Assembly (NCBI RefSeq): GCF_024298825.1
Contig: NZ_CP101153.1
Span: 930,001 to 994,000, forward strand
Origin: Haloglomus salinum
GTDB taxonomy: Archaea; Halobacteriota; Halobacteria; Halobacteriales; Haloarculaceae
Length of the DNA stretch: 64,000 nucleotides
Direction of reading: 5' to 3'
Shown: one piece after another, positions 8,175-54,846 of the stretch
Layout of the letters: every line of letters starts with the position of its first letter
Position numbering within the stretch: the stretch's first letter is position 1
Made by a program: the position numbers and the translations under genes
Notes under the pieces: model-generated
What the model was told of the DNA's origin: nothing
What the model saw: only the letters and a program-made list of their open reading frames with translations
Database searches by the model: none

Positions 8175-9071
8175 ATGGCCGAGCAGGAATCGCTGGCGCT
8201 GGAGCGCGTGCTGCCGCCCGAGGACACCGCCGTCGGCTACTTGCTCCGACTGTCGCGCCCCCGATTCTGGCTGTATCTCGCGGGGCCCGTGGTGGTGGGT
8301 GTGGCGTACGCCGCCGGCTCGGTCGGCGAACTGTTCGCCCCGCTCGCGCTCGCGCTGTTCGCGTACTTCCTGCTCCCCGCGAACGTCTTCCTCTACGGCG
8401 TCAACGACATCTTCGACGCCGACATCGACGCGGAGAACCCGAAGAAGGAGGGCCGGGAGGTCCGGTACCAGGGTTCCCGCCTCGTCGTCGCGGCCGTCGT
8501 CGTCTCGGGGCTGCTGGGACTGGTGTTCGTCCCGTTCCTCCCGCTCGCCGCAGTGGGGACACTGGCCCTGTTCGGCTTCCTCTCGGTCGAGTACTCGGCG
8601 CCGCCGCTGCGCTTCAAGACGACGCCGTTCCTCGACTCGCTCTCGAACGGCCTCTACATCCTCCCCGGCGTCGTGGCGTACACGGCGCTCGCCGGGCAAC
8701 TGCCACCGCTGGGCGCCATCGTCGGCGGCTGGCTCTGGACGATGGGGATGCACACGTTCTCCGCGATTCCGGACATCGAACCCGACCGCGCCGCCGGCAT
8801 CGAGACGACCGCGACCTACCTCGGGCGGTTCAACACCTTCCTCTACTGCGCGCTGATGTGGCTCCTGGCGGCGGTGGCGTTCGTCTACGTCCACCCCTTC
8901 TTCACGGTGGTGCTGATGCTGTACCCGCTGCTGGTGTTCGGCATCACCTTCGCCCGCGTGGACGTGGACGAGGCCTACTGGTGGTACCCCATCATCAACT
9001 CGCTCGCCGGGATGGTCATCACGATGGGTGGGCTGTACGTACTGGTCTACGGCAACCCGTTCGTGGGGTAG
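8175..9071 (+). CDS. lyeJ: Lycopene elongase/1,2-hydratase (UbiA family)
   Basis: A 298-residue prenyltransferase with about eight membrane segments. Both Asp-rich motifs of UbiA enzymes are seen: 'NDIFDADIDAENPKKEGRE' (first) and 'DIEPDRAAGIETTATYLG' (second). In haloarchaea this subgroup adds dimethylallyl C5 units to lycopene and hydrates the 1,2-double bond, the first committed steps to bacterioruberin. It is co-transcribed with crtD (two-base gap). The third usual gene of the cluster, cruF, does not follow; instead a repeat element begins 58 bases on. Confidence 0.88.
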   Translation: MAEQESLALERVLPPEDTAVGYLLRLSRPRFWLYLAGPVVVGVAYAAGSVGELFAPLALALFAYFLLPANVFLYGVNDIFDADIDAENPKKEGREVRYQGSRLVVAAVVVSGLLGLVFVPFLPLAAVGTLALFGFLSVEYSAPPLRFKTTPFLDSLSNGLYILPGVVAYTALAGQLPPLGAIVGGWLWTMGMHTFSAIPDIEPDRAAGIETTATYLGRFNTFLYCALMWLLAAVAFVYVHPFFTVVLMLYPLLVFGITFARVDVDEAYWWYPIINSLAGMVITMGGLYVLVYGNPFVG

Positions 9072-9129
9072 GGCGGCAGCTGCGAATCGCTTTGCCGTTC
9101 AAACGATGACCGAAGCGGCGGAACCCTGT

Positions 9130-9640
9130 ACGAAGCCCTCGGCCGCTCCGGGGCCGCGGCTCGCTGTGCTCCTTGCCTCGCTCCCTTCGGTCGCTCGGCT
9201 GCGGTGCTTGCGTCGCCGGGGCACCGCGGAGCGGCCTCGCCCTTCGAGTCCGCCAGGACACAGAACGTGTCACGGGCGCGGCGGCCCTGCCCTTCCCCGG
9301 GGCGCACGGCCTCGCGGGCAAGCCGCTCGGCACACGCTCCCGGCCGACGAGCGGCTGCTCGGCCGGCCGGTTCCACTAACAGGAAGCGCGCTCGCACCAT
9401 CCCAGCGAACCCGCGACCGAAGGGAGCGTGGTGAGCGCATCCGGCGCGAGCGCGGGGAGGTGTGGGGGCACCAGCACTCCGCTGGAACCACTACGCGCGT
9501 CGCTCGACCCGAAACACCTCCCCCTGGCGGACTCGAAGGGCGAGCGCTCTCGGGGAAGACGGCCGACGCAAGCACCGCAGGCGCCTCCGGCGCCCGAGGA
9601 GCGCAGCGAGGCCCTCAACCCGAGAGTGCGAGGGCTTCGT
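9130..9640. repeat. 511-bp GC-rich imperfect inverted-repeat element
   Basis: This fills most of the 705-base gap between the convergent lyeJ and rfcL genes. The outer ends are ACGAAGCCCTCG (9130-9141) and its exact complement (9629-9640). Further matching blocks in the same order are 9160-9173 with 9597-9610 (13/14), 9199-9215 with 9564-9580 (17/17) and 9236-9257 with 9523-9544 (22/22). A nested 70-bp unit (9454-9523) has its own 10-bp inverted ends, GGGGAGGTGT/ACACCTCCCC. No protein with plausible codon use is present. Related copies occur at 54704-54846 and, for the inner unit, at 17762-17825. Bases 9641-9776 are AT-rich and show nothing else. Confidence 0.8.
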
Positions 9641-9776
9641 AGTTGTTGTCGCTGAAATTGTTGGCAGAGAACACAAGGACTTCGTATGGTCCGAATTAGT
9701 AATATACTAGAGGTTTTAGAGCAAAATATTCGACCTAATCGTTGAATGTCGCTAATTAGCACTTTAATTCCTGTCT

Positions 9777-11246
9777 CTACATGAAATCGCCTAGCCCGGA
9801 CTGCTGGTCGTCATCCTCCGCGGCCTCCGCGTCGGCCTCGCGGCCCTCCTCCTCCCCGTCGCCCGAGCCATCGTCACCGCCACCGAGCGTCGCCTGCGCG
9901 ACTTCCTCGTCTTCGCCGTCGGCATCGTCACCCTCCTCCCCGTCCATCTCCGACTCCGCCACACCACCAGCGAACGCGCCACCCGAATGCTCCACCGCCT
10001 CCTGCTCGCGCAGTTCCTCTGCGTCGGCCACGATGTCCTGCACCTTGTTCGTCGACTCGCCGCTGCCCGTGACGAAGGAGACGTGCTCTGCCTCCAGTTC
10101 GTAGCGGGCGGCCATCAACACCGTCAACTCGCGATTCTTGCAGTGGTGGGTCATCACCGCGAGGAACGGCATGATCTCACGCCGAGCGGTCGCCGTCGAC
10201 ACCCCGGCGGACTCGGCGATGCGCTCGGCGATGTAGTCCCGCGTCGAGTCCCGGTACGACCGATAGGGGGCGCCGCCGTAGCGCGTCCAGCCACCGCGGT
10301 CGCGGGTACGGGCGGCCGCGACACCCGCCGCGATGTTGTCGGTCGCGTAGCGCCAGTACGTGTAGTTCTGCGTCGCCCGCACGCGTCCGAGCCAGCGGTC
10401 GGCCTTCGCGAGGTAGCCGTACGCGTCAGCCACCTCGTCGCCCTCGTACACCGTCGGGACCTTGTCCTCGACCCACTGGAGCAGGTCGTCGGGCGTCTCG
10501 TCCGTGTCGTAGGCGGTCTGGAGGGCCTCCTCCGGCGACTGCTCCTTGAGCACCGCGTCGAGCAGCGAGAAGATGTCCTGCGTGCGGTCGCGGTCGCTCG
10601 TCGAGACGTCGTCCTCGGTGATGCGGTCCCGCCCCTCGGCGGCGGCCTGCAGGTCCTTGATGGCCCCGCGGAGGTCGCCGTCGTTGGTGCTCGCGATACG
10701 GTCCAGCGCGGCGTCCTCGTACTGGATATCCTCCTTGCGGCAGATGTCCCGGAGGACGGGGAGGATGGAGCGCTTGCCCACGTCCCGGAACTCGATATCC
10801 CGACAGGCGCTCCGCAACCCGCGTGACATCTCGTAGAAGTCGTTGGCGATGAGGACGATGGGCTGGTTGGCCGACTTCACGAGGTCCGTCATCGCGCGGG
10901 CGCCGCCGCGGTCCTTGTGCTGGTGGAGGTTGTCCGCCTCGTCGAGGATGACCAGTTGCCGGCCCGTCGAGGTGAGCGACTGGTTCATCGCCGCGCCGCC
11001 GGCCACCTTCTTGATCTTGTCAGCGGTCCGCGAGTCGCTGGCGTTGAGTTCCATCACCGACCAGCCCATGTCGTTCGCGAGCGCGTGCGCGGCGCTGGTC
11101 TTCCCCACGCCGGGCGCGCCGTAGATGATGACCGCCTCGCCGTGGTCGTCCCACGACCGGGCCCACTCGTGGAGCTGGTCCCGGGCCTTGTCGTTGCCCC
11201 GGACCTCCGACAGCGTCGTGGGCCGGTACTTCTCCGTCCAGTCCAT
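9777..11246 (-). CDS. rfcL: Replication factor C large subunit
   Basis: The clamp-loader large subunit, 489 residues. Walker A is 'GAPGVGKT' (43-50) and Walker B 'LVILDEAD' (98-105); the rest of the AAA+ core and collar domain match archaeal RfcL. The last ~75 residues form an extremely acidic linker of Asp, Glu and Gly that ends in 'QSGLGDFM', a PCNA-interacting (PIP-box-like) peptide at the very C-terminus. With the small subunits (not in the window) it loads PCNA onto primed DNA. A TATA-like element sits about 29 bases before the ATG. Confidence 0.96.
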   Translation of the reverse strand: MDWTEKYRPTTLSEVRGNDKARDQLHEWARSWDDHGEAVIIYGAPGVGKTSAAHALANDMGWSVMELNASDSRTADKIKKVAGGAAMNQSLTSTGRQLVILDEADNLHQHKDRGGARAMTDLVKSANQPIVLIANDFYEMSRGLRSACRDIEFRDVGKRSILPVLRDICRKEDIQYEDAALDRIASTNDGDLRGAIKDLQAAAEGRDRITEDDVSTSDRDRTQDIFSLLDAVLKEQSPEEALQTAYDTDETPDDLLQWVEDKVPTVYEGDEVADAYGYLAKADRWLGRVRATQNYTYWRYATDNIAAGVAAARTRDRGGWTRYGGAPYRSYRDSTRDYIAERIAESAGVSTATARREIMPFLAVMTHHCKNRELTVLMAARYELEAEHVSFVTGSGESTNKVQDIVADAEELREQEAVEHSGGAFAGGVAESEMDGEEGDDADGEDEEVAQATLGGGDDGSGDGEEEGREADAEAAEDDDQQSGLGDFM

Positions 11247-54605: not shown

Positions 54606-54703
54606 ATTCTGGATCTCTCCTCGGGCCCCTCGGCATCTGTGAGAACGAGCGTGCGTGTGTACCGATTTGTTTGGTGTTCCTGGCGACAGCAGCAGCAACC
54701 GGT

Positions 54704-54846
54704 AGAAAGCCCCGGGGCGCTGAGGGGCCCCGCGGCTCGCTGCGGTCCTCGGTCGCTTCGCTCCCTGCGGTCCTTACGTCGTCCTCAGAAATCTCCGAGT
54801 TTCGAAGACAGCGAGACCCGGACAGTCGAGCAGCCAGGGGCTTCCA
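54704..54846. repeat. Short copy of the GC-rich inverted-repeat family
   Basis: This fills the middle of the 341-base gap between the convergent trkH genes. It opens AGAAAGCCCCGGGGCGCT and ends CCAGGGGCTTCC (54834-54845), whose complement GGAAGCCCCTGG resembles the start. The internal CGCGGCTCGCTG (54731-54742) is identical to 9155-9166, and the order of the blocks follows the left arm of the element at 9130. The rest of the gap (54606-54703, 54847-54946) holds no recognisable gene. Confidence 0.65.

Follow-up and report, generated by a model that had tools for sequence, protein, structure and literature searches.

The window, the whole 64,000-nucleotide stretch of Haloglomus salinum DNA analysed here, contains a block of inverted repeats between two convergent genes, one at 8175-9071 (plus strand) and one at 9777-11246 (minus strand), the latter presumably encoding a replication factor C large subunit, which its translation resembles by eye. 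An inverted-repeat search of the window recovered the arms of this block where the first-pass annotation had placed them: outer arms at 9129-9173 and 9597-9641 (45 nt, 76% match), arms at 9196-9215 and 9564-9583 (20 nt, 95%) and arms at 9229-9257 and 9523-9551 (29 nt, 90%), the last with an exact run of 22 of 22 bases (CTCGCCCTTCGAGTCCGCCAGG) inside. The ends of the element, TACGAAGCCCTCG and CGAGGGCTTCGTA, had been described as identical over 12 bp and are exact inverted copies over 13 bp. The fold energy of the block is -332 kcal/mol, compared with -267 +/- 6 kcal/mol in 100 shuffles, none of which was as low (z = -10.9). No Pfam match was found for the six open reading frames within 9129-9641; a coding-gene reading was therefore dropped, and the arms are unexplained by an intact coding gene.

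Rather than one long nested hairpin, the whole element (9129-9641) consists of two inverted hairpin modules of about 125 bp flanking a structured core of about 265 bp, as delimited by arms, fold, copies and profiles. Module L (9129-9258, plus strand), an imperfect hairpin of about 125 bp, was assigned by its match to the module profile and by an alignment of 76 modules; it has a type-A end (TACGAAGCCCTCG...CCTCGCCCTTCGAGTCCGCCAGG), its own stem (CGGCCGCTCCG with CGGAGCGGCC), a variable apical hairpin and a local fold of -65 kcal/mol. Module R (9522-9641, minus strand) is a second, inverted copy assigned on the same grounds, with a stem (CTCTCGGG with CCCGAGAG) that differs from that of module L and a local fold of -63 kcal/mol. 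Between them lies the asymmetric core (9259-9516), delineated by the alignment of 22 full-length cores, in which CCCTGCCCTTCCCC pairs with GGGGAGGTGTGGGG and encloses several hairpins. A single degenerate flanking unit (9642-9686, minus strand) carries the module terminus once more at its end, GGACTTCGTA. The 511-bp palindrome arises secondarily, because two related modules that each fold alone stand in inverted orientation. The 70-bp inner unit (9454-9523) of the first-pass annotation, bounded by 10-bp ends at 9454-9463 and 9514-9523, does exist in the window copy, but it is not conserved: its right arm (ACACCTCCCC) occurs in one of the 22 aligned cores, the window's own, and its left arm (GGGGAGGTGT), conserved among cores, has its pairing partner elsewhere. 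We therefore judged the unit coincidental and dropped it as a nested element. A second module in the window, found by its profile match (54703-54798, plus strand), is single and truncated and likewise lies between convergent genes.

A DNA search yielded 128 matching pieces in the same genome, to which pattern searches added loci, and the module and core profiles, run on the window and on 64 fetched stretches (65 sources, with genes called by our own codon-usage script), resolved 64 clusters in the H. salinum genome (G000). In none of the 64 did the overlap with a called gene exceed 100 bp; copies are about 70-84% alike. For the alignments, 76 of 86 module matches were kept, those below 40 bits being dropped, and 22 cores were picked as near full length and shorter than 330 nt. 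The module unit measures about 115-130 bp and, read from the outside inwards, type A comprises GAAGCCCTCG, a stem strand, CTCGCTGCGCTCCTCG, a variable hairpin, CTGCGGTGCTTGCGTCG, the second stem strand and CTCGCCCTTCGAGTCCGCCAGG; type B runs GAAAGCCCCCG...GGCCCCTTTCAGTCCCGCCC. Outside many modules stand tandem units of 36-54 bp, one to five per copy, in which the module terminus is repeated. CTAC or GTAG adjoins many type-A ends, by impression rather than count (for example the right end in the window, CTTCGTAG), while type-B and other ends differ.

Several further observations concern this anatomy and its possible relatives. The numbers of tandem flanking units vary by species; those at L025, L026, L034, L058, L084 and L308 measure 36-57 bp and start with the module terminus, and most of those in the genome G292 hold TTATAAATA. 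Small perfect palindromes such as CCGTCAGAGCAAGCTCTGACGG sit inside module stems as nested hairpins (L023:3212-3260, L035:3193-3320, L317 and L322). The genes enclosed by neighbouring copies were ordinary in three loci, and the idea of modules flanking a cargo gene was dropped on this account. A known Rfam RNA was likewise set aside, since the best Rfam matches for the element and for the plasmid region described below scored far below the gathering thresholds, as was a phage origin, since a search of 50,697 phage records gave no match at an E-value of 0.01. A 17-base pattern hit 11 loci in viral contigs, of which only L210 fits the module profile, weakly (E 0.006).

Searches of this genome and of other haloarchaea bore out the idea of a dispersed, transposase-free repeat family, with further copies in the genome and relatives throughout the order. 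A 531-base query found matches in 23 of 39 genomes, full length only within the genus, and the core pattern was present in H. halophilum, H. irregulare and the metagenome-assembled genome QS_4_70_19, its other matches being scattered chance hits in bacteria. A module-like 17-base pattern with one mismatch allowed occurred in 168 of 293 Halobacteriales genomes, whereas the reversed-pattern control gave zero to two matches per genome; the highest counts of module sites included 108 (G292), 95 (G127), 82 (G240) and 66 (H. salinum). The arrangement of the parts changes across the order: Haloglomus has many inverted pairs around a core, some genera have close pairs without a core (as read in G029), and G292 has single modules, then CACCTCACGCCTCCCCAGCC and two further hairpins (of 24 G292 elements, the 20 that measure 230-340 nt were used for counts). 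In Haloglomus, the motif CRCCTCCCC follows 14 of 31 R modules and none of 36 L modules. Because it trails R and not L, the minus strand of the core, whose profile is drawn on the plus strand, fits the orientation of the G292, or order-wide, module.

The module alignment revealed which pairs are kept. The local stem in the 76 modules contains many alternative Watson-Crick pairs at single positions, for example CG in 49 and GC in 21, or GC in 54 and AU in 17. Across the 36 base pairs of the module present in the folds of both strands, 88% of the combinations were Watson-Crick as against 70% in shuffled alignments (maximum of 200 shuffles, 72%), and 24 of the 36 had changed on both sides; in the cores the figures were 90% and 79%. 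Local strands paired in 86% of cases, compared with 60% when strands from different modules were mixed. In contrast, L and R modules of the same element (23 elements with both) resembled each other at the stem columns no better than permuted pairs do (0.590 vs 0.599, p = 0.68). The unit of constraint is therefore the local hairpin, and we dropped the reading of the block as one long 511-nt RNA or duplex. The single long structured RNA put forward as a possibility in the first-pass annotation is not supported, as the two ends do not co-evolve and G.U pairs are not above A.C pairs. At the window's site in a second genome (G001), the R module has a stem and loop that are different as a block but again paired.

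The module also occurs on plasmids, where it matched 59 records. There it forms the 5' end of a non-coding, hairpin-rich region of about 540 bp, which matched 168 plasmid records (78 with at least 80% of the query covered) and also found matches in 175 of 293 genomes; 37 of 44 such regions remained for alignment after duplicates and short ones were dropped. In the 14 loci viewed, 6-27 bp separate the end of the region from a start codon, which belongs in 13 cases to an OB-fold/Ssb-like gene annotated as 'DNA-binding protein' and in one to a TFB gene. The Ssb-like assignment rests on PF21473 matches (E 1e-3 to 3e-5, one above the curated cut-off) in the three proteins run against Pfam and on annotation in the rest; the best solved match of the Ssb-like protein is 2kbn_A, a 109-residue chain labelled 'conserved protein' (E 3e-10). 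MPF_T was found on nine of the 14 viewed plasmids, all of which were typed as non-mobilizable. Chromosomal homologues of the Ssb-like gene are present in Haloglomus genomes, and upstream of five that we checked, the module and the remainder of the leader lie several hundred bases apart at three (L260, L261 and L262), there is one weak joined match at L258, and no module or leader match was found at L257.

Some features of the plasmid region are recorded here for their own sake. The region (L253:2949-3499) is up to about 95% identical between genera and is absent from Rfam. It has a variable domain near region position 300-340, in which alternative hairpin inserts are exchanged (L264:4280-4480). 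The TFB case is L267 (Haloplanus aerogenes pJCM16430-01), and TFB genes also lie near L268, L269 and L272.

We examined how the elements are oriented relative to the replication initiator gene orc1. In H. salinum, the Orc1 gene lies at 1.518 Mb. Of the 42 cores no more than 1.1 Mb distant, 33 face away from it when read in the G292 sense (p = 0.0003), as do 13 of the 18 within 0.5 Mb (p = 0.10). A test with a free switch point placed the switch at 1.50-1.53 Mb (p = 0.012), and agreement in orientation between neighbours was marginal (p = 0.051). In G292, for which the orientation set comprised 100 of the 108 module places, the reference was a gene at 0.27 Mb that resembles the H. salinum Orc1 gene in that its long frame is split; away from it point 7 of 9 and 23 of 32 of the modules listed, and the free switch-point test was not significant (p = 0.08). 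GC skew computed from the sampled loci gave no clear origin signal. We regard an orientation bias away from the Orc1 locus as suggestive only.

One alternative is that these are multicopy genes for a structured non-coding RNA, in which transcription of the module (with the core) would start from the unit next to it on the upstream side and the product would fold as RNA, the copies being paralogs. The strong stem covariation with conserved loops, the GNRA-like apical loops that some cores have (GCAA, for example), and orthologues that are conserved like structural RNA genes while paralogues differ would all suit it. So would the finding that, in G292, 17 of 24 modules have a TATA box 35-38 nt upstream; this resembles a promoter and would favour RNA in that genome. 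Against it, TATA-like words lie upstream of 4 of 72 Haloglomus modules and were found in none of the displayed upstream stretches of other genera, and Rfam offers no match near its gathering scores. Under selection on RNA, moreover, the transcribed strand should show more G.U than A.C. Among pairs in the folds of both strands, we counted 40 G.U against 89 A.C in modules, 25 against 23 in cores and 77 against 66 in plasmid regions (not significant), and in the plus fold of the G292 elements 19 against 33. The exception is the plus-strand fold taken alone, which is biased to G.U by construction and gave 151 G.U against 64 A.C in cores, with 596 against 167 in plasmid regions. Because G.U pairs are not above A.C, the pairing looks DNA-level rather than RNA-level, but this is an unproven lean, since the control of 11 tRNAs was itself small and not sharp (6 G.U against 4 A.C; 14 against 5 in the plus fold). 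L and R modules show the same G.U/A.C sign, each in its own orientation; inverted and yet alike in this way, they are ill-suited to a single transcript through the element. Taken with these counts, RNA genes seem to us unlikely. A terminator or insulator for convergent genes, that is, a local regulatory hairpin, would account for a very stable hairpin at this site, but we give it next to no credence: the 64 clusters are not concentrated in convergent gaps (17, against 15 divergent and 32 tandem), and the convergent setting emphasised by the first-pass annotation, true at the window, is incidental to the family.

The other serious alternative is a dead or dying non-autonomous transposon without function (MITE- or PATE-like), in which template switching and recombination between copies would keep the stems palindromic. 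The family is interspersed, lacks a transposase and has inverted ends, and the suggestion that the element is a non-autonomous mobile one holds to this extent, that a dispersed, transposase-free family of 64 clusters exists, with no mobility demonstrable. Its history can be followed in H. halophilum (G002; NZ_CP101166.1), for which we compiled 69 candidate places (the 64 clusters and about five loci without a profile match); for 45 of them the fetched H. halophilum stretches included both flanks. An element is present in H. halophilum too at most of these 45. No profile match lies in the H. halophilum gap at five, namely L024, the first of L037, L070, L073 and L092, and L073 and L092 lack one in H. 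salinum as well. Copies are thus retained at orthologous sites, and they decay by slippage or deletion between short repeats, as at L072, where sequence between short direct repeats was lost; at the window's site in G002 the left half is missing. Whole modules are exchanged, and the count of flanking tandem units differs between species; like the decay, these are things that a dying transposon might also show. At the four sites displayed of the 45 compared (L037, L024, L072 and L070), however, there is no clean insertion with a duplication, and visual inspection of the window copy and of the displayed sites revealed none of the target-site duplications that the first-pass annotation proposed to look for. 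Internal loops with fixed mismatches persist in most of the 76 modules, where blind correction should remove them, and four module-rich genomes (G053, G063, G025 and G029) have no Y1 transposase matches. In 20 orthologous pairs, which we chose as mostly complete, mean identity was 0.909 for the element, 0.793 for intergenic sequence (lowered by misalignment in some loci), 0.969 for codon positions 1-2 and 0.860 for position 3, and the element exceeded its neighbouring intergenic sequence in 17. High identity between orthologues is true of only part of the copies: eight of the 20 lie at 0.982-0.996, six lie below 0.85, and the window's own is at 0.703. On this evidence we find a functionless transposon doubtful.

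Comparison with known systems brings the family closest to bacterial REP/BIME sequences, with which it shares extragenic location, dispersal in tens of copies, single units or inverted pairs, mosaic structure and an internally mismatched palindromic hairpin, as well as an imperfect palindrome kept by compensatory change. REP/BIME units, however, measure 20-40 bp against about 115-130 bp for the haloarchaeal module, which moreover is archaeal, has constant apical sequences and has a large structured core between the members of a pair. REP/BIMEs come with a RAYT, whereas the haloarchaeal element has no linked dedicated Y1 transposase. Y1 matches occur in 186 of 293 genomes, and the two Y1 genes listed of three matches in H. 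salinum (282492 and 3333147) lie away from known copies; a Y1 transposase as a present requirement was dropped in view of the module-rich genomes without one. Like MITEs, the elements are short, non-coding and dispersed and have inverted ends (13 bp exact at the window), but they differ in that no target duplications were seen and, in a non-exhaustive search, no matching transposon was found, in having copies about 70-84% alike and in their long retention at sites. The PATEs of Haloquadratum (PMC3119063) lack terminal inverted repeats and resemble IS605-type ends. They are like our elements in being haloarchaeal, non-coding and heterogeneous, without target duplication and with near-terminal palindromes (here the module hairpins at both element ends), but our elements do have inverted ends, and we found no relationship to the IS605 type. 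Because one defining feature of each class was tested and found lacking, we did not place the family in REP/BIME, MITE or PATE. No word starting with 'Halo' occurs in the available portions of RepRanger (PMC12306157) or of the GTAG/CGTC survey (PMC3733652). Our best reading is a giant BIME-like family of extragenic DNA-hairpin repeats of the Halobacteriales, of which we found no description in the literature searched.

We conclude that the element in the window is a copy of this order-wide haloarchaeal family, which we read, slightly more probably than not (about 0.55), as old and as acting through DNA hairpin sites. The copies form an extragenic family of the anatomy described, whose local hairpins covary; each module is a hairpin of about 115-130 bp in which the stems vary with compensation and the internal-loop and apical sequences stay constant. 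Such a hairpin would act as DNA when its strand is single (during replication, transfer or uptake) or when it is extruded; a putative protein may bind it by recognising its internal loop and apical sequence, both of which are conserved, and the copies would have spread long ago by some activity. Because of the orientation away from the Orc1 locus and the plasmid location ahead of the Ssb-like gene, the sequence data point to a possible role tied to single-stranded DNA. The non-mobilizable typing of the plasmids, the G292 TATA boxes and the orthologues of low identity weigh against the DNA-hairpin reading. In bacteria, the folded single strand of Frpo and ssi sites loads polymerase or primase. 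The plasmid version resembles Frpo of the F plasmid in being a hairpin-rich region directly before an SSB-type gene on many plasmids with T4SS genes, and differs in being archaeal, in spanning about 540 bp with several hairpins and in having chromosomal copies without an attached Ssb-like gene; it is not known to act as a promoter. By analogy, the module could be an archaeal control element of single-stranded DNA whose strand, when single in incoming plasmid DNA or in the lagging-strand template, folds and loads polymerase or primase, which on plasmids would drive the Ssb-like protein (or TFB) on entry and whose chromosomal copies would be initiation or restart sites adopted by the host; we rate this specific proposal as distinctly improbable.

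If the DNA-hairpin reading is correct, haloarchaea hold abundant, order-wide extragenic DNA hairpins far larger than bacterial REPs, with up to about 100 module sites per genome, of a kind that we did not find described in the literature searched. The family would also supply natural covariation data for telling DNA-level from RNA-level selection on hairpins. The link of this module, in 168 plasmid records, to a strongly conserved region that immediately precedes an Ssb-like gene would make it testable whether archaea, on plasmids and chromosomes alike, use single-stranded DNA in folded form for control.
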